Of a DNA stretch of 41,574 nt, positions 75 to 14,021 are shown one piece after another. The stretch lies in assembly GCA_019118505.1 (NCBI GenBank), contig DWYU01000155.1, forward strand, positions 1 through 41,574, in the 5' to 3' direction. How positions within the stretch are numbered: position 1 is the first letter of the stretch; every line of letters starts with the position of its first letter. Source of the stretch: Candidatus Oscillibacter excrementavium. GTDB lineage: Bacteria > Bacillota > Clostridia > Oscillospirales > Oscillospiraceae. The position numbers and the translations under genes are program-made. The notes beneath the pieces were generated by a model that did not search any database, had not been told where the DNA came from, and saw only the letters and a program-made list of their open reading frames with translations.

Positions 75-352
75 CAATCAATGCGATGACGCAGAGTAGT
101 AAGCGGGAATGGACTTTCAGAGAAGTGCCGGGTGGTGCGAGGCACAGAGCTCCCAGACCCGCCGAACTGGCTGCACCAGCAGCCGCGCTGAACAGGAGTA
201 GGCGCGGACGGGCGCTCCCGTTACAGGGCAGGGATATGATGGTATCCCGGTGAGTGTGTCCCCCTTGCGGGGGCAAAGAAGAGTGGTACCGCGGAAGGTT
301 TTCATCCTTTCGTCTCTTCTGCCAAGCGGCAGGAGCGGCGAAGGGATTTTTT
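75..352 (+). promoter_or_regulatory. T-box riboswitch leader
   Basis: Specifier loop AGUA/GAA S-turn (GCAGAGUAGUAAGCGGG ... CCCGCCGAACUGGCUGC); stem II GCGCUGAACAGGAGUAGGCGC; CGGGCGCUCCCGUUACAG stem IIA/B; T-box GAGUGGUACCGCGG at 281-294; terminator hairpin CCUUUCG...CUGCC-AAGC-GGCAG...CGAAGGG then T6 (304-352). Confidence 0.92.
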
Positions 353-398
353 GTTGCCCTGCCAAGACCATCATCTATTTTTGCAGGAGGAAACCAGA

Positions 399-1634
399 AT
401 GAAAACCAAGATTCCAAAGACCCCGTTCCTGGCCGCGTTCTCCGTGGGCGCGGTGCTGTTCTCCGCCCATGCCGGCGGCGGCTTTGCCACCGGCAACCAG
501 GCCAACACCTACTACGTGGGCCTGGGCTGGGCCGGCGTGGCCTCCGCCATCGTGGCCATGCTGCTGCTGACGCTGACCATGCGGGAGGCCATGATCATGT
601 ACAACTCCCGGGGCCTCACCGGCCACAAGGAGCTGTTTGAGACGCTGTACCACCCCTTCGACAAGCTGGTTTGGCTGTTTGAGATCTTCTTCTACATCAT
701 GGTGCTGATGGCCGTGGCGGCCGCCATCTCCGGCGCCGCCTCCACCCTGACCACCTATTTCGGGCTGAATTACTACATCGGCGTGGTGGCGGTGGGCGCC
801 CTGGTGCTGGTGCTGACCATCTTCGGCGCCGGCCTGGTCCGGGCGGCCTCCACCTACATGGGCATCGCCATTCTGGTCACCGCCATCACCATCTACGCCG
901 TGGGCATTTTCAACAGCGACCGGTCCATCCTGGACGTGCTGGCCGCCGACTTCCAGACCACCGGCTTTGCCGATGTGCCCACCGCCATCCTCAACGCCTT
1001 CACCTATGCCGGGTTCCAGTGCGTGACGCTGCCCACCATGGTGGCCTGCGGCACCACCATGCGCAGCAAGCAGGGCTGCGCCAAGGCCATGTGGATCTCC
1101 TTTGTGATGAACGCCGTGGCCCTGGTGCTCTCCGTGTTCATGCTGCTGTGCTGGGAGGATGTCTACACCGCCGTGGACGGCGGCACCACCATCCCCACCC
1201 TGACGGTGTGCAACACCATGGGCATCCAGGGACTGACCGTCATCTACGGCGTCTGCCTGCTGCTGTGCCTGATCTCCACCGGCGTCACCACCATCTTCGG
1301 CTTTGTGGCCCGGTTTGAGAAGCTGCCCCTGTTCCGCAGCATCCGGTCCGCTCCGGTCCGCAGCGCCATCGTCTCCGCCTTCATCATCATCCTGTCCATG
1401 TCCATCTCCATGGTGGGCCTCAGCAACATCATCAAGTACGGCTACGGCTACTGCGGCTACCTGGGCATCCTCGTGGTGGTGATCCCGTTCCTGACCGTGG
1501 GCGTCTACAAGAACCGGAAGTATCTGAAGGCCCACAGCGGCGTCTTTGCCGAGGTGCCCCAGGCGGAGGCGGCGCCGGAGAAGCCCGCCGCCCGTCCCGC
1601 GGCCCGTCCCGCCGCTCCCGCAGAGGCGGAGTGA
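399..1634 (+). CDS. YkvI-family (COG3949-like, APC superfamily) membrane transporter
   Basis: AGGAGG SD; hydrophobic multi-TM protein with GGGFATGNQ N-terminal motif resembling the YkvI GxGFAxGxE region. Confidence 0.75.
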   Translation: MKTKIPKTPFLAAFSVGAVLFSAHAGGGFATGNQANTYYVGLGWAGVASAIVAMLLLTLTMREAMIMYNSRGLTGHKELFETLYHPFDKLVWLFEIFFYIMVLMAVAAAISGAASTLTTYFGLNYYIGVVAVGALVLVLTIFGAGLVRAASTYMGIAILVTAITIYAVGIFNSDRSILDVLAADFQTTGFADVPTAILNAFTYAGFQCVTLPTMVACGTTMRSKQGCAKAMWISFVMNAVALVLSVFMLLCWEDVYTAVDGGTTIPTLTVCNTMGIQGLTVIYGVCLLLCLISTGVTTIFGFVARFEKLPLFRSIRSAPVRSAIVSAFIIILSMSISMVGLSNIIKYGYGYCGYLGILVVVIPFLTVGVYKNRKYLKAHSGVFAEVPQAEAAPEKPAARPAARPAAPAEAE

Positions 1635-1685
1635 GAGAAAGCCCCATCCCAGCAGTTATACCAACACCAAAAGGAGTTTTGCAAT

Positions 1686-2765
1686 ATGGAAAAATCGCTC
1701 TTTCCCGGCTATACCATCGGGCCGGACGCCTATGAGGACATCAAAAACGTCTGCCCGGCATACGGCCGCAAGGTGGCCATCATCGGCGGCGAGAAGGCTC
1801 TGGCCGCGGCCAAGGACAAGATCCTGAAGGCCATGGAGGGCTCCGGCCTGGAGGTCCTGGGCGTGTTCTGGTACGGCGGCGAGGCCTCTGTGGAGAACAT
1901 GGAGATGCTGCGGCCCCAGGTGGCGGAGGCGGATATGCTCTTCGCCGTAGGCGGCGGCAAGGCCATCGACACCTGCAAGGTCCTGGCCCACAGCACCAAC
2001 CGGCCCTTCTTCACCTTCCCCACCATCGCCTCCACCTGCGCGTCCTGCACATCCCTGGGCATCGTCTACCATCCGGACGGCAGCCTGCGGGAGTACTCCT
2101 TCTCCAAGATCCCCCCCAACCACATCTTCATCGACACGGAGATCATCGCCAACGCGCCGGTGCGGTACCTCTGGGCCGGCATGGGGGACACCATGGCCAA
2201 GCACTATGAGTGCACCATCTCCTCCCGGAACGACATCCCCGCCCACTCCGACGCCATGGGCATCGCCCTGAGCTCCATGTGCGCGGAGCCCATCGTCCGC
2301 TGGGGCAAGAAGGCCATGGAGGACTGCGAGGCCCACCGGGTGACCATGGAGCTGACGGAGATCATCCTGGCCATCATTGTGTCCACGGGCTTCGTGTCCA
2401 ACTTCGTCCAGGTGGACTACACCACCGGCATGGCCCACGCCATGTACAACGGCTTCACCATCCTGCCCAGCACGGAGGCCAACCACCACCTCCACGGCGA
2501 GGTGGTGTCCTACGGCATCCTGGTGATGCTGACCGTGGACAAGCAGTACGCCGAGCGGGACAAGCTGTTCGCCTTCAACAAGTCCATCGGCCTGCCCACC
2601 TGCCTGGCGGACATCCACGCCCGGGAGGAGGATCTGCCCGCCGTGACAGAAAAGGCATTGCAGGGCATCGACGTGCGGATCTGGCCCTATCCCGTGGACC
2701 AGCAGATGCTGATCGACGGCGTCATGGAGCTGGAGGCTTACAACCGGCAGCAGGCAGCAAAATAA
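1686..2765 (+). CDS. iron-containing alcohol dehydrogenase family, HcxA/YbdH-like hydroxycarboxylate dehydrogenase
   Basis: GGGKAIDTCK; PTIASTCASCTSLGIVY; AGMGDTMAKHYE; AHAMYNGFTILP...HGEVVSYGILV motifs resemble E. coli YbdH (HcxA). Confidence 0.8.
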   Translation: MEKSLFPGYTIGPDAYEDIKNVCPAYGRKVAIIGGEKALAAAKDKILKAMEGSGLEVLGVFWYGGEASVENMEMLRPQVAEADMLFAVGGGKAIDTCKVLAHSTNRPFFTFPTIASTCASCTSLGIVYHPDGSLREYSFSKIPPNHIFIDTEIIANAPVRYLWAGMGDTMAKHYECTISSRNDIPAHSDAMGIALSSMCAEPIVRWGKKAMEDCEAHRVTMELTEIILAIIVSTGFVSNFVQVDYTTGMAHAMYNGFTILPSTEANHHLHGEVVSYGILVMLTVDKQYAERDKLFAFNKSIGLPTCLADIHAREEDLPAVTEKALQGIDVRIWPYPVDQQMLIDGVMELEAYNRQQAAK

Positions 2766-6675: not shown

Positions 6676-7557
6676 ATGAAAAAAGTATTCTCTCTCTTGC
6701 TGTCCCTGACCATGGTCATGGCCCTGCTGGCCGGCTGCGGCGGCGACACCTCTTCTGACGAATCCACCGCTGCGGACGACACCGCTTCCGGCGATACCGC
6801 ACAGGAGGAGACCACCGAACTGAGCGGCACCGTCAACACCAACGGCTCCACCTCCATGGAGGATGTGATGGGCACCCTGATCGAGGCTTTCAAGGAAGTG
6901 CAGCCCGGCGTGACCGTGAACTACACCGGCAGCGGCTCCGGCGCCGGCATCACCGGCGCCCAGGAGGGCACCTGCGACATCGGTCTGGCCTCCCGCGACC
7001 TGAAGGAGGACGAGACCGGCGTCAGCCAGATCACCGTTGCCAAGGACGGCATCGCCATCATCGTCAACCCCGAGAACCCTGTCTCTGACCTGAGCCTGGA
7101 GCAGATCGCCGCCCTGGCTACCGGCACCACCGCCAACTGGTCCGAGGTGGGCGGCAACGACGCCCAGGTCGTGTTCATGGGCCGTGAGGCCGGTTCCGGC
7201 ACCCGGGACGGCTTCGAGTCCATCACCGGCACGGAGGATGCCTGCAAGTATCAGAACGAGTACACCTCCACCGGCGAGGTCGTCGCAGGCGTCGCCTCCA
7301 ACCCCAACGCCATCGGCTATGCCTCCCTGTCCGCTGTCACCGGCGACGACACCGTGAAGATCCTGACCGTGGGCGGCGTGGCTCCCTCTGAGGACACCGT
7401 TCTGGACGGCTCCTACGCCATTCAGCGGAACTTCAACTTCATCATCAGCGACAGCACCCCGCTGTCTGATGCCGCTCAGGCTTTCGTCGACTGGGCTACC
7501 TCCACGGAGGCCTCTGACCTGATCGCCGGCGCCGGCGCTGTGCCCGTGGCCGAGTAA
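6676..7557 (+). CDS. pstS: phosphate ABC transporter substrate-binding lipoprotein PstS
   Basis: Lipobox LLAGCGG; GSTSM; GSGSGAGI; GREAGSGTRDGFES; followed by pstCAB. Confidence 0.95.
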   Translation: MKKVFSLLLSLTMVMALLAGCGGDTSSDESTAADDTASGDTAQEETTELSGTVNTNGSTSMEDVMGTLIEAFKEVQPGVTVNYTGSGSGAGITGAQEGTCDIGLASRDLKEDETGVSQITVAKDGIAIIVNPENPVSDLSLEQIAALATGTTANWSEVGGNDAQVVFMGREAGSGTRDGFESITGTEDACKYQNEYTSTGEVVAGVASNPNAIGYASLSAVTGDDTVKILTVGGVAPSEDTVLDGSYAIQRNFNFIISDSTPLSDAAQAFVDWATSTEASDLIAGAGAVPVAE

Positions 7558-7580
7558 TTCAAAATTCGTACATGACCGAC

Positions 7581-7612
7581 GGAGTGCCCCCTTGGCTTCG
7601 AGGGGGCACTCC
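7581..7612 (+). other. intercistronic hairpin between pstS and pstC
   Basis: GGAGTGCCCCC-N10-GGGGGCACTCC, perfect 11-bp stem, no U-tract downstream. Confidence 0.85.
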
Positions 7613-7656
7613 GCCTGTAGGAGTCAAGACCCGTTTGAGAAAGGCCGGTATTTACC

Positions 7657-8532
7657 ATGAATGCCACAAAACAAAAAATCCGACCGATGGAATGGATCAT
7701 GAACGCCGTGTTTTTCATCTGCGGCTTCGTCGCCATCGTGTTCGTGCTCTTCATCAGCATCTATCTGATCATCTCCGGGCTGCCCGCCATCCGGGAGATC
7801 GGCCTGGTGGACTTCCTGTTCGGCAGGGAGTGGGCCTCCACGGCATCGGATCCCAAGTTCGGGATCCTGCCCTTTATCCTGACCTCCATCTACGGCACCT
7901 GCGGCGCCATCATCCTGGGCGTGCCCGTGGGCTTCATGACGGCGGTGTTCCTGGCAAAAGTGGCCCCTCCCAAGCTGGCGGCCGTGGTCCGGCCGGCGGT
8001 GGACCTGCTGGCGGGCATCCCCTCCGTGGTCTACGGCCTGATCGGCATGATGGTGCTGGTCCCCGCCGTGCGCAGGGCCTTTGACCTGCCGGACGGCGCC
8101 AGCCTCTTCTGCGCCATCATCGTCCTGGCCATCATGATCCTGCCCTCCATCATCTCTGTGTCCGAGACCGCCCTGAAGGCCGTCCCCCCGGAGTACGAGG
8201 AGGCCAGCCTGGCCCTGGGCGCCACCCACATTGAGACCGTGTTCCGGGTCAGCGTGCCCGCGGCCTCCAGCGGCATCGCCGCGGCGGTGGTGCTGGGCAT
8301 CGGCCGCGCCATCGGCGAGGCCATGGCCATCATCATGGTGGCCGGCAATGTGGCCAATATGCCCTCCCTCTTCTCCAGCGTCCGGTTCCTGACCACCGCC
8401 GTGGCCAGCGAGATGGCATATGCCTCCGGCTTGCAGCGCCAGGCGCTGTACTCCATCGCCCTGGTGCTGTTCATCTTCATCATGATCATCAACATCGTTC
8501 TGAACACGCTGCTGAAGCGGAAGAAGGGGTGA
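7657..8532 (+). CDS. pstC: phosphate ABC transporter permease PstC
   Basis: Multi-TM permease; EEASLALGATHIETVFRVSVPAASSGI EAA-loop; operon position. Confidence 0.93.
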   Translation: MNATKQKIRPMEWIMNAVFFICGFVAIVFVLFISIYLIISGLPAIREIGLVDFLFGREWASTASDPKFGILPFILTSIYGTCGAIILGVPVGFMTAVFLAKVAPPKLAAVVRPAVDLLAGIPSVVYGLIGMMVLVPAVRRAFDLPDGASLFCAIIVLAIMILPSIISVSETALKAVPPEYEEASLALGATHIETVFRVSVPAASSGIAAAVVLGIGRAIGEAMAIIMVAGNVANMPSLFSSVRFLTTAVASEMAYASGLQRQALYSIALVLFIFIMIINIVLNTLLKRKKG

Positions 8533-8539
8533 GCGGAAT

Positions 8540-9421
8540 ATGGAAGAGAACAAAATCACCGTGCAGCCCCTCTCCGGCCGGCGCAAGGCCTATGACCGGG
8601 TGCTCCGGTTCCTGCTGTATTTCTGCGCCGGGCTGACCTGCGCCCTGCTGATCTTCATCATCGGCTATATCTTCATCCGGGGCCTGCCCCATGTGACCTG
8701 GGAGTTCCTGAGCACGGAGCCCAGCTACATCAACGACACCATCGGCATCCTGCCCAACATCGCCAACACCATTTACATCGTGGTGGTGACGCTGATCATC
8801 ATCCTGCCCCTGGGCGTGGGGGCCGCCGTGTACCTGACGGAGTACGCCAAGAACCAAAAGCTGGTGGCAGCCATCGAGTTTGCCACGGAGACCCTGACCG
8901 GCATCCCCTCCATCATCTTCGGCCTGGTGGGTATGCTGTTCTTCTGCGAGCTGCTGGGGCTCCAGGCATCCCTGCTGGCCGGCTCCCTGACGCTGGTCAT
9001 CGCCACCATCCCCACCATCATCCGCACCACCCAGGAGTCTCTGAAGACGGTGCCCCAGTCCTACCGGGAGGCCTCCCTGGGCCTGGGAGCCGGCAAGTGG
9101 CACATGATCCGCACCGTGGTGCTGCCCTCCTCCATCGACGGCATCGTCACCGGCTGCATCCTGGCCATCGGCCGCATCGTGGGCGAGAGCGCGGCCCTGC
9201 TGTTCACCGCCGGCATGGGCATGAGCATGAACAACTTTTTCGGCTCCGTCAGCAACTTCATGCATTCCTCCGGCTCCAGCCTGACAGTGGCCCTGTATGT
9301 GTACGCCCGGGAGCGGGCGGAGTTCGACGTGGCCTTTGCCATCGCCGCCATTTTGATGCTGCTGACCCTGATCATCAACCTGGCCGCCAGCCTGGTGGGC
9401 CGGAAACTGAAGAAAAAATAA
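8540..9421 (+). CDS. pstA: phosphate ABC transporter permease PstA
   Basis: Multi-TM permease; [42 protein letters not shown]. Confidence 0.93.
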
Positions 9422-9435
9422 TAGGAGTGTGCCAA

Positions 9436-10191
9436 ATGTCCGCCATCATTGAAGTGAAAGATCTGAATCTGTGGTACGGGGCACACCATGCCCTGCACAG
9501 TGTGAATATCGACATCCCCGAGCATGAGATCACCGCCCTGATCGGCCCCTCCGGCTGCGGCAAGTCCACCTTCCTCAAGACCCTGGACCGGATGAATGAC
9601 CTGGTGCAGGGCGTCAAGATCAAGGGCACGGTGGCCTACCGTGGGCAGGATATCTACGCCCCCGGCGTGGACGTGACCTGGCTGCGCAAGCAGATCGGCA
9701 TGGTGTTCCAGAAGCCCAATCCCTTCCCCATGAGCATCTATGACAACGTGGCCTACGGCCCCCGGACCCACGGCATCCGCTCCCGGGCCAAGCTGGACGA
9801 GATCGTGGAGAACTCCCTCCGCGCCGCCGCCATCTGGGACGAGGTGAAGGACCGGCTGAAGAAGAGCGCCCTGGGCCTCTCCGGCGGCCAGCAGCAGCGG
9901 CTGTGCATCGCCCGGGCCCTGGCGGTGGAGCCGGAGATCCTGCTGATGGACGAGTCCACCAGCGCCCTGGACCCCATCTCCACCTCCAAGATCGAAGACC
10001 TTGCAGTGGAGCTGAAAAGCAAGTATACTGTAATCATGGTGACTCACAATATGCAGCAGGCGGCCCGTGTCTCCGACAACACGGCGTTCTTCCTGCTGGG
10101 GGATCTGGTGGAGTACGGCAAGACCGAGGTCCTGTTCTCCACCCCCACAGACAAGCGCACCGAGGATTACATTACCGGCCGGTTCGGCTAA
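9436..10191 (+). CDS. pstB: phosphate ABC transporter ATP-binding protein PstB
   Basis: [54 protein letters not shown]. Confidence 0.95.
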
Positions 10192-10203
10192 GGAGGATGT
10201 CAG

Positions 10204-10851
10204 GTGAGAAACAAGTTCAGTGAGCAGCTGGAGAAGCTGCACGTGGAAATGATTCAGATGGGCGCCCTGTGCGAGGACGCCATCTCCGCCGCGGCACAGG
10301 CCCTGATGAAGGGCGACGAGGATCTGGCCCAGGCGACGGAGGACGCGGAGCGGGAGATCGACCAGAAGGAGCGGGAGGTGGAGAACCTCTGCCTGAAGCT
10401 GCTGCTGCAGCAGCAGCCGGTGGCCCGGGACCTGCGGGAGATTTCCTCCGCCCTGAAGATGATCTCCGACCTGGAGCGGATCGGCGACCAGGCGGCGGAC
10501 ATCGCCGAGCTGACCCGGTTCGTCCGCCTGCCGGAGGGCCCCGGCCGCCAGCGGATCGAGGAGATGTCCAAGGCCGTCATCCGCATGGTGACGGGCAGCG
10601 TGGACTCCTTCGTCAAGCGGGATCTGGAGCTGGCCCGGGAGGTCTGCCGGGAGGACGACCAGGTGGACGAGCTGTTCAACCAGGTGAAGAAGGAGCTGAT
10701 CGCCCTGATCGCCGCCGACGCCTCCTCCGGAGAGCTGTGGCTGGACATGATCATGGTGGCCAAGTACCTGGAGCGGATCGGCGACCACGCCACCAATGTG
10801 GCGGAGTGGGTGGAGTACTCCATCACCGGCAACCATCCCTCCAACAACTGA
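10204..10851 (+). CDS. phoU: phosphate signaling protein PhoU (GTG start)
   Basis: ERIGDQAADIAEL and ERIGDHATNVAEW repeats; downstream of pstB. Confidence 0.95.
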   Translation: MRNKFSEQLEKLHVEMIQMGALCEDAISAAAQALMKGDEDLAQATEDAEREIDQKEREVENLCLKLLLQQQPVARDLREISSALKMISDLERIGDQAADIAELTRFVRLPEGPGRQRIEEMSKAVIRMVTGSVDSFVKRDLELAREVCREDDQVDELFNQVKKELIALIAADASSGELWLDMIMVAKYLERIGDHATNVAEWVEYSITGNHPSNN

Positions 10852-10946
10852 GGCAGGCGACCTGCCCGGCACACACCGCCGCTTCCGCGGCGGCTGTGCC
10901 CTATCCGGCGCCGCGGGCGCAGTACGATTTGGAGGGGGGAACCGCC

Positions 10947-11606
10947 ATGCTCACCTATGAGGATGTGAAAAAGGACCCGGCGGTCCGGACCTATATCCAG
11001 CGGGCCGACGAGTCCCTGGTTGCCCTGGGCTATACCGAGCACAGCTTTGCCCATGTGACGCTGGTGGCGGAGAATGCGGCCTACATTCTCTCCACCCTGG
11101 GGTATCCGGAGCGGACGGTGGAGGTGGCGAAGATCGCCGGCTTCCTCCACGACATCGGCAACCTGGTGAACCGCATCGACCACTCCCAGTCCGGGGCCGT
11201 CATGGCCTTCCGCATCCTGGACAACATGGACTGCGACCCGGAGGAGATCGCCACCATCGTCACCGCCATCGGCAACCACGACGAGGGCACCGGGATGCCG
11301 GTGAACGCCGTGGCGGCGGCGCTGATCCTGGCGGACAAGTCCGACGTCCGCCGCAGCCGGGTCCGGAATCCGGATCCGGCCAGCTTTGACATCCATGACC
11401 GGGTGAACTACTCGGTGAAAAAGTCCAGGCTGAAGATCAACGAGGAGCACTCGCTCATCAAGCTGAAGCTGTCCGTGGATACCAAGTACGGCTCTGTCAT
11501 GGAGTATTTTGAGATTTTCATGGACCGGATGATCCTCTGCCGGAAGGCGGCGGAGCGTCTGGGCCTGCAATTCAAGCTGATGATCAACGAACAGCAGCTG
11601 ATCTGA
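10947..11606 (+). CDS. HD-domain metal-dependent phosphohydrolase
   Basis: H..., FLHDIGN, GNHDEGTGM, LADKSDVRRSR motifs; SD GGAGGGGG. Confidence 0.85.
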   Translation: MLTYEDVKKDPAVRTYIQRADESLVALGYTEHSFAHVTLVAENAAYILSTLGYPERTVEVAKIAGFLHDIGNLVNRIDHSQSGAVMAFRILDNMDCDPEEIATIVTAIGNHDEGTGMPVNAVAAALILADKSDVRRSRVRNPDPASFDIHDRVNYSVKKSRLKINEEHSLIKLKLSVDTKYGSVMEYFEIFMDRMILCRKAAERLGLQFKLMINEQQLI

Positions 11607-11666
11607 GCGGCCGGAGCGGCCGCCCCTCCGCCCTTCCAGTGGGGCGGGAGACTGAAATTTGGAGGG

Positions 11667-12341
11667 ATGACTGTGATCTATCTGCTGGAGGATGACGACA
11701 GTATCCGGGATTTTGTGATCTACACCCTGAACAGCCAGGGCATGGAGGCCAAGGGCTTTCCGCTGCCCTCCCTGTTCTGGCAGGCCGTGGGGGAGCAGCT
11801 GCCCTCCCTGGTGCTGCTGGATATCATGCTGCCGGAGGAGGACGGCCTCTCTGTTTTGAAAAAGCTCCGCGCCGCTCCCCGCACCGCAAAGCTGCCGGTG
11901 ATCATGCTGACGGCCAAGGGCACGGAGTACGACAAGGTGATCGGCCTGGACGGCGGCGCCGACGACTATGTGGCCAAGCCCTTCGGCATGATGGAGCTGC
12001 TCTCCCGCATCCGGGCGCTGCTGCGGCGGACGGAGACGGAGAACGGCATTCTCCGCTGCGGCATTCTGGAGGTGGATCCGGGCCAGCACATCGTCCGGGT
12101 CCGGGGACAGGAGACCACCCTGACCCAGAAGGAGTTCGAGGTGCTGTGCCTGCTGCTGCGGAACCCGGGGCAGGTGCTGTCCCGGGAGCAGCTGATCGAA
12201 AACGTCTGGGGCTACGCCTTCACCGGCGAGAGCCGGACGGTGGACGTCCATGTGCGGACCCTCCGCCAGAAGCTGGGAGAGGCCGGGGCATACATCGAGA
12301 CCGTCCGGGGCTATGGCTACAAGATCAGCACGGTGAGCTGA
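11667..12341 (+). CDS. phoP: OmpR/PhoB-family response regulator (PhoP-like)
   Basis: EDDDSIRDF, LLDIMLPEEDG, MLTAKG, winged-helix C-terminus RTVDVHVRTLRQKLG; operon context. Confidence 0.88.
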   Translation: MTVIYLLEDDDSIRDFVIYTLNSQGMEAKGFPLPSLFWQAVGEQLPSLVLLDIMLPEEDGLSVLKKLRAAPRTAKLPVIMLTAKGTEYDKVIGLDGGADDYVAKPFGMMELLSRIRALLRRTETENGILRCGILEVDPGQHIVRVRGQETTLTQKEFEVLCLLLRNPGQVLSREQLIENVWGYAFTGESRTVDVHVRTLRQKLGEAGAYIETVRGYGYKISTVS

Positions 12342-12359
12342 CCGGGGGCTGGAGGCGAC

Positions 12360-14021
12360 ATGACGAAACGGATTTTTCGGTCCATCCTGGCGGTGTCCCT
12401 GGCGGTGCTGCTGGCCAGCCTGGTGCTGATCGTGGGAGTGCTCCACGGCTATTTCCAGGACCGGGTGGCGGACGAGCTGGAGAGCCTGGCGGAGTACATC
12501 GCCCACGGCGTGGAGGAGACCGGCGCGGATTATCTCTCGGAGGATCTGCCCGGCAGCTACCGGGTCACCTGGGTGGACGCGGACGGCGCCGTGCTCTTCG
12601 ACAACCGGGAGGACCCGGCCAAAATGGAGAACCACGCCCAGCGGGAGGAGATCCGGGAGGCGATGACCCTGGGCAAGGGCCAGGCGGCCCGCTATTCCGA
12701 CACCCTCTCCCAGCAGACGCTGTATGTGGCTCAGCGGCTGGCCGACGGCACGGTGCTGCGGGTGTCCAGCACCCAGTACTCCGTCTGGATGCTGGTGCTG
12801 CAGGCGCTGCAGCCGGTGGCGCTGATGATGCTGCTGGCCTTCGTCCTGGCCATGGCGCTGGCCTCCCGGGTGTCCCGGCAGCTGGTGGAGCCCATCAACA
12901 ACATCGACCTGAATGACCCCGCCGGCGGCGAGACCTATGAGGAGCTGACGCCGCTGCTGTCCAAGCTCCGGAGCCAGCAGCGGCAGATCCAGCGGCAGAT
13001 GCGGGATCTGAAACGCCGGCAGGAGGAGTTCGTGGCCATCACGGAGAACATGAGCGAGGGCTTCCTGGTGATCGACCAGGAGACCCGGGTGCTGACCTAC
13101 AACTCCGCCGTGCTGCGGCTGCTGTACGCCCAGCCCCCCGCCGAGGAGGGGGAGAGCGTCTACGCCCTGGACCGGGAGGCGGGCTTCCGCCACTGCGTGG
13201 AGGAGGCCCTGGCCGGCCGGCGGTGCGAGCAGCTGCTGGAAAAGGACGATGACTGCCGCCAGATCATCGTCAGCCCGGTGGAGCAGGACGGCCAGATCGT
13301 GGGCGCGGTGCTGGTGATCCTGGACGTGACGGAGAAGGAGCAGCGGGAGCGGCTGCGGCGGGAGTTCACCGCCAACGTGTCCCACGAGCTGAAGACACCT
13401 CTGACCTCCATCCTGGGCACGGCGGAGATCCTGCAAAACGGCCTGGTGAAGCCGGAGGACATCCCCCACTTTGCCGGGAATATCCACCGGGAGACGGAGC
13501 GGCTCATCGGGCTGGTGAACGACATCATCAAGCTGTCCCGCCTGGACGAGGGCGGCGGCCTGGGCCAGTGGGAGACCGTGGACCTGTATGAGGAGGCGCG
13601 GGCCGTGCTGGAACAGCTGGCCCCGGCGGCCCGGCGCAAGCAGGTGACCACCCGTCTCCAGGGCGGCCAGACCCTGGTGCGGGGAGTGCCCCAGATCGTG
13701 GAGGAGATCGTCTACAACCTCTGCGACAACGCCATCGCATACAACCGACCGGACGGCAGCGTCACCGTCACGGTGGAGGACACCGCCTCCGGCCCCCGGA
13801 TCACAGTGGCGGACACCGGCATCGGCATCCCCCGGGAGGCCCAGGGCCGGGTGTTCGAGCGGTTCTACCGGGTGGACAAGAGCCACTCCTCCGGCGGCAC
13901 GGGGCTGGGGCTCTCCATTGTCAAGCACGGGGCCGCTTACCTGGGGGCCCAGGTGGAGCTCCACAGCGAGCCGGGCCACGGCAGCACCTTCATCCTGACC
14001 TTTCCCAAAATCGAGGAATGA
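12360..14021 (+). CDS. phoR: PhoR-like sensor histidine kinase with PAS domain
   Basis: ANVSHELKTPLTSILG H-box; NLCDNAIAYN; GIGIPREAQGRVFERFYRVDKSHSSGGTGLGLSIVKH. Confidence 0.9.
   Translation: MTKRIFRSILAVSLAVLLASLVLIVGVLHGYFQDRVADELESLAEYIAHGVEETGADYLSEDLPGSYRVTWVDADGAVLFDNREDPAKMENHAQREEIREAMTLGKGQAARYSDTLSQQTLYVAQRLADGTVLRVSSTQYSVWMLVLQALQPVALMMLLAFVLAMALASRVSRQLVEPINNIDLNDPAGGETYEELTPLLSKLRSQQRQIQRQMRDLKRRQEEFVAITENMSEGFLVIDQETRVLTYNSAVLRLLYAQPPAEEGESVYALDREAGFRHCVEEALAGRRCEQLLEKDDDCRQIIVSPVEQDGQIVGAVLVILDVTEKEQRERLRREFTANVSHELKTPLTSILGTAEILQNGLVKPEDIPHFAGNIHRETERLIGLVNDIIKLSRLDEGGGLGQWETVDLYEEARAVLEQLAPAARRKQVTTRLQGGQTLVRGVPQIVEEIVYNLCDNAIAYNRPDGSVTVTVEDTASGPRITVADTGIGIPREAQGRVFERFYRVDKSHSSGGTGLGLSIVKHGAAYLGAQVELHSEPGHGSTFILTFPKIEE

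Follow-up and report, generated by a model that had tools for sequence, protein, structure and literature searches.

Which amino acid does a T-box leader sense when it precedes a YkvI-like transporter and an iron-dependent dehydrogenase, and what would these two proteins do for the cell? The question is raised by a transcription unit within the first 2.8 kb of a contig (C41) of Candidatus Oscillibacter excrementavium, which was analysed over a stretch of 41,574 nucleotides (DWYU01000155.1, hereafter the window) and in which every part of the unit lies on the forward strand. An earlier note, made from the sequence letters, had described a complete promoter, a T-box leader with terminator, two genes and a closing hairpin, and this layout was confirmed, with its coordinates right to within a few bases. 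The sigma-70-type promoter at 40-68 (TTGACA-17-TATCAT) agrees with the consensus at 11 of 12 positions and carries an extended -10 TG. The leader at 77-320 matches the Rfam covariance model RF00230 over its full length (model positions 1-219 of 219), with 105.9 bits against a gathering score of 93 (E 1.5e-22), bearing out the T-box assignment, and it is the sole Rfam match above cut-off across the window. Its antiterminator (277-320, -19.7 kcal/mol, z -2.7) contains the T-box bulge UGGU at 284-287, predicted to pair with the ACCA end (A73) of tRNA-Leu, and an intrinsic terminator occupies 304-353, consisting of a stem at 304-347 and a T run (-31 kcal/mol, z -5.7). The two structures are mutually exclusive, as the folds of 276-330 and 299-358 have 304-320 in common. 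In T-boxes, uncharged cognate tRNA switches expression on, i.e. at amino acid starvation. The ribosome-binding site AGGAGG (385-390) then leads into the transporter gene (399-1634), followed by the dehydrogenase gene (1686-2765) and the hairpin that closes the operon at 2791-2826 (16 pairs, -34.4 kcal/mol, z -9).

The specifier loop of Stem I, formed by AGUAGUA (the AGUA loop, 95-101) and GAACUGG, is enclosed by the lower helix GCAG (91-94)/CUGC (171-174). According to the TBDB rule, the specifier comprises nucleotides 2-4 counted from the 3' end of the bulge (PMC7778990), and its application to the GAACUGG side gives CUG (Leu) at 167-169, followed by the single nucleotide G170 and then the helix. 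For calibration, the rule was applied to other T-boxes of this genome, whose downstream genes were identified by eye, and it returned GUC for ValS, UAC for TyrS, CUG for both LeuS and LeuA, AUC for IleS and IlvC, UGG for TrpB and TrpE, ACC for ThrS, UUC for PheS, UGC for CysS and AAC for AsnB. The genome also encodes two tRNA-Leu(CAG) genes ending in ACCA, so that the host's own tRNA, with A73 as its discriminator base, fits both the CUG specifier and the UGGU bulge.

A protein search with the transporter yielded 64 related loci (numbered with the prefix L) from Oscillospiraceae, Lachnospiraceae, Peptoniphilaceae, Negativicutes, Erysipelotrichaceae and Lactobacillaceae, of which 52 have a T-box just upstream of a transporter copy. 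Leucine specifiers (CUG, CUC, CUA or CUU) were read in 50 loci, six of them by hand where the automatic caller missed the codon or was one base off (L044, L045, L048, L074, L075 and L104). The bounding helix changes on both sides among these relatives (GCAG/CUGC, GCGG/CCGC, GUGG/CCAC, GCAA/UUGC, GAGG/CCUC, AUGA/UCAU and others), a compensated variation that supports its pairing. A tryptophan reading of the window, GAAC-UGG, was considered and rejected, as homologues carry CUC-A, CUA-G, CUU-A or CUG-A at the same place, and a shift of one base would turn these into UCA, UAG, UUA or UGA; since stop codons would thus arise in several loci, the CUN reading is firm. The UGGU bulge, which also suits A73, does not by itself prove either reading, as the tryptophan T-box before a TrpX-like gene in the same genome has UGGU too. 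In Peptoniphilaceae-type loci, tandem transporters follow CUA (Leu) and AUC (Ile), respectively, while L071 and L084 have an Ile-type T-box only. Read in this way from its sequence, the T-box of the window is leucine-specific, and leucine T-box control of a conserved two-gene unit is well supported by sequence.

The transporter, a protein of 411 aa termed YkvI-like here after the Bacillus subtilis membrane protein YkvI (COG3949), matched no Pfam or NCBIfam family and no PDB sequence, and was therefore placed by fold search only. Its AlphaFold2 model (pLDDT 87, pTM 0.86) found LeuT-fold proteins as top PDB matches (AdiC, TM 0.64; LeuT, 0.60), which makes it a predicted member of the LeuT-fold APC superfamily. 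Relatives of the transporter adjoin three unrelated families of 2-hydroxyacid enzymes. At L096 (5001-8923), a 51% identical transporter without a T-box precedes the nickel-dependent lactate racemase LarA (543 bits against a cut-off of 460), and at L028 a 29% identical one follows a LarA-family protein; L096 also encodes a galactarate-dehydratase-like protein. EtfB-EtfA-GlcD operons end in a YkvI-like transporter at L167 (3872-8784) and on the reverse strand of L169 (4416-9094), the Etf-GlcD genes having been assigned by Pfam for L167 and L030 and otherwise by eye; these operons probably serve 2-hydroxyacid (lactate) oxidation. They resemble the known electron-confurcating lactate dehydrogenase operons (EtfAB plus a GlcD-type protein) and share with the window a YkvI-like transporter, here directly downstream of a 2-hydroxyacid dehydrogenase, but they use an FAD/Etf enzyme and have no T-box at the gathering threshold. 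Together with the dehydrogenase of the window, such gene associations point to hydroxyacids as the cargo of YkvI-like transporters.

The dehydrogenase (359 aa; PF00465 and PF13685) belongs to the Fe-ADH family and conserves the metal ligands D168, H251 and H270. The earlier note had called it HcxA/YbdH-like, a description that stands for the active-site signature and fails for membership. Indeed, all 56 dehydrogenases of its clade have C118, at the position of Asp in the STDAPC motif of GldA, and K172, at the position of a GldA Thr; E. coli HcxA has the same Cys and Lys, GldAs have Asp and Thr, and the full HcxA-type set (Asp, His, His plus Cys and Lys) is thus present in 56/56 and in HcxA itself. 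Assignment to the HcxA/YbdH equivalog (PRK10586) was rejected at 153 bits against an NCBIfam cut-off of 429, and assignment to GldA (PRK09423), the best-scoring NCBIfam subfamily though below cut-off, at 218.6 bits against 336. With 32% of its residues identical to HcxA and 30% to a GldA, the protein is best regarded as part of a separate clade, resembling HcxA at the level of its signature and standing outside its equivalog. In a maximum-likelihood tree, the dehydrogenases form one supported group (99/94), with L162 just outside and HcxA, GldA and L121 apart; the exact place of HcxA is unsure because its branch is long. Within the group, tryptophan-linked units (see below) form one clade (100/100) and most leucine-linked units another (100/98).

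The pairing of transporter and dehydrogenase recurs in 39 of the 64 loci. It is not due to chance, since the dehydrogenase is otherwise rare: among 295 genomes of the order, just 27 had a match at E 1e-40. The two genes are separated in six Peptoniphilaceae-type loci by one for the branched-chain aminotransferase IlvE (at L069, TIGR01123, 393 bits against a cut-off of 250). IlvE is part of the operon in Peptoniphilus asaccharolyticus (L071) and missing from that of P. genitalis (L085), which comprises transporter and dehydrogenase. No leuC match was found in the five Peptoniphilus genomes tested and no ilvC match, above or below cut-off, in P. asaccharolyticus and P. genitalis; with these genes missing, an IlvE induced by leucine starvation could have no part in de novo synthesis and would need carbon skeletons from outside. 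A full leucine T-box unit was also seen on a Synergistota MAG contig (L059, Candidatus Caccocola), nested in the Oscillibacter clade, reflecting either horizontal transfer or a binning error.

From gene association and active-site signature we infer the substrates and biochemical roles, and favour, with a probability of about 0.55, a salvage unit induced by leucine starvation. By the established mechanism of T-boxes, uncharged tRNA-Leu(CAG) would bind both the CUG of Stem I and the UGGU of the antiterminator, giving readthrough into the two genes once charged tRNA-Leu becomes scarce. The LeuT-fold transporter, for which we propose import of 2-hydroxyisocaproate or else of 2-oxoisocaproate or leucine, possibly more than one of them, would supply the substrate for the dehydrogenase, a proposed 2-hydroxyisocaproate:NAD(P)+ oxidoreductase, and the resulting 2-oxoisocaproate would be aminated to leucine by IlvE. 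2-Hydroxyisocaproate is leucine's 2-hydroxy acid and is excreted by amino-acid fermenters. Since it is uncharged cognate tRNA that turns a T-box on, expression of the unit should increase the supply of leucine, and induction at starvation likewise favours the direction from hydroxy acid to amino acid. An amino-acid-responsive unit coupling transport to the interconversion of 2-oxoacids and 2-hydroxyacids had been suggested before, with neither specifier nor direction of reaction given, and this suggestion largely holds in view of the leucine specifier, the six loci with IlvE and the HcxA signature. The host itself has leuA, ilvC and ilvE under T-boxes (ilvE, at L011, under a valine T-box apart from the unit), which makes leucine auxotrophy unlikely, and salvage here would spare rather than replace de novo synthesis. 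Counted against the salvage reading are these biosynthetic genes, the modest identity to HcxA, the leucine T-box transporters that lack a dehydrogenase and the isoleucine leaders read by hand.

The most serious competitor, which we consider rather unlikely, is a plain importer of leucine (or branched-chain amino acids), with the dehydrogenase in a subsidiary role, either trimming pools of 2-oxoisocaproate or recycling NAD(P)H. Some 15 leucine T-box loci (in Megasphaera, Acidaminococcus, Ligilactobacillus and others), several of them cut by contig ends, have the transporter without the dehydrogenase, so leucine itself is possible as cargo, and the LeuT fold is typical of amino acid carriers. 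There is also precedent in leucine T-box transporter genes, namely those of YvbW of Bacillus subtilis and of NSS and LIVCS/BrnQ transporters (PMC2494555), with which the window shares a leucine-specific T-box before a LeuT-fold transporter gene. Unlike these systems, the present transporter family has no Pfam or NCBIfam model, and a dehydrogenase is co-transcribed, joined by IlvE in six loci. A plain importer would leave the repeated pairing of YkvI-like transporters with three unrelated 2-hydroxyacid enzyme families unexplained, and an accessory reductase induced at starvation would drain leucine carbon.

A leucine fermentation unit of the Stickland type, with uptake and transamination of leucine followed by reduction to 2-hydroxyisocaproate as an electron sink, seems improbable. 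The dehydrogenase reaction is reversible in principle and carriers of the unit include amino-acid fermenters, e.g. Peptoniphilus and Acidaminococcus, but the polarity of the T-box, which is on at leucine starvation, speaks against it, and reductive fermentation is further disfavoured by the absence from the host genome of PF06050, the 2-hydroxyacyl-CoA dehydratase subunit. Still less credible is a GldA-type glycerol or polyol dehydrogenase with a function unrelated to leucine: the best NCBIfam score and the PDB relatives, which are glycerol dehydrogenases, speak for it, while the invariant Cys and Lys shared with HcxA, the tree position of GldA and HcxA references outside the well supported in-group and the operons with IlvE speak against it. 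Equally remote is the export or detoxification of a leucine-derived or leucine-mimicking hydroxy or oxo acid that competes for leucyl-tRNA charging. In its favour, any fall in the charging of tRNA-Leu would trigger such a T-box; against it, the unit has no resistance gene or inactivating enzyme and the biosynthetic leuA is under the same control in the genome.

Sister units suggest that the salvage reading may extend to other amino acids, the same enzyme family then serving tryptophan (through indolelactate) and, less surely, isoleucine (through 2-hydroxy-3-methylvalerate). Six genomes of the order (L153-L156, L164 and L165, loci of about 8-14 kb each) have a dehydrogenase homologue behind a tryptophan T-box (GAA-UGG), whose bulge is UGGC in five cases. 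The dehydrogenases are 43-47% identical to that of the window, the adjoining YkvI-like transporters 25-27%, and both gene orders occur; salvage of tryptophan from indolelactate is a possible role for these units. At L157 and L158, a dehydrogenase homologue lies beside a TrpX-like ABC transporter, with no T-box at the gathering threshold. For isoleucine, T-boxes read by hand as AUC stand before a 40% identical dehydrogenase and a BASS-family transporter at L043 (7500-10009), L046 (4780-7557) and L163 (5822-8658). These AUC readings, comprising the second T-boxes of L043, L046, L050, L052, L058 and L097 as well as that of L163, are tentative, as the automatic caller failed on them. The BASS-family transporters are nearest to PanS (202-204 bits, below the cut-off of 400), a ketopantoate/pantoate carrier, and a dehydrogenase gene is likewise paired with a BASS/PanS-like gene at L075 (1893-4089). 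At L162, genes for a class I aminotransferase, a dehydrogenase and a membrane protein lie in a row. Downstream of the leucine unit, the T-boxes of L050 (7630), L052 (4354), L058 (7621) and L097 (7601) precede an HTH-cupin-AMP-binding fusion whose closest match, at a score below cut-off, is MbcS (methylbutyryl-CoA synthetase), and such units may feed isoleucine synthesis from 2-methylbutyrate.

A parallel is found in enterobacteria, where hcxA (ybdH) lies beside the methionine aminotransferase gene mtnE (ybdL) and is repressed by MetJ (PMC3228920); in E. coli K-12, the two genes are divergently arranged (L166, 4390-6747), ybdL encoding a methionine transaminase. Both arrangements place an Fe-ADH-family hydroxyacid dehydrogenase of the same broad family, with the same metal ligands and signature Cys and Lys, under amino-acid-responsive control, next to an aminotransferase in the E. 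coli pair and in the six Peptoniphilaceae-type loci. They differ in that the E. coli pair has no transporter and answers to methionine through a protein repressor, whereas here leucine acts through a T-box. In the open literature, no work joining T-boxes with YkvI, or T-box riboswitches with iron-containing alcohol dehydrogenases, was found, a weak sign of novelty as subscription papers fell mostly outside this search.

A more general route can be put forward tentatively, at somewhat less than even odds: gut Firmicutes would use T-boxes to import and oxidise the 2-hydroxy acids excreted by their neighbours (2-hydroxyisocaproate, 2-hydroxy-3-methylvalerate and indolelactate), rebuilding Leu, Ile and Trp. 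YkvI-like proteins would then form a family of 2-hydroxyacid transporters, and the members of the Fe-ADH clade would be amino-acid-specific 2-hydroxyacid dehydrogenases, with the T-box upstream revealing the specificity of each. This offers a testable substrate axis for a widespread transporter group that lacks a curated family model and for an Fe-ADH clade whose best current label is glycerol dehydrogenase. If true, it would amount to cross-feeding of 2-hydroxy acids in the gut, the waste of amino-acid fermenters being a source of amino acids for others, and the T-box specifier would tell which amino acid is involved.

Two further observations concern the host genome. Two very similar T-boxes on other contigs (L014 and L019, on C88 and C161) read GCC (Ala) and precede genes for a class I aminotransferase and a PhzF-like isomerase; this combination of targets is unusual. 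In the window, 6676-14018 looks like a pst/pho region, with a gene for a periplasmic protein of the phosphate-binding type (PBP_like_2) and, farther along, a pair encoding a response regulator and a histidine kinase.
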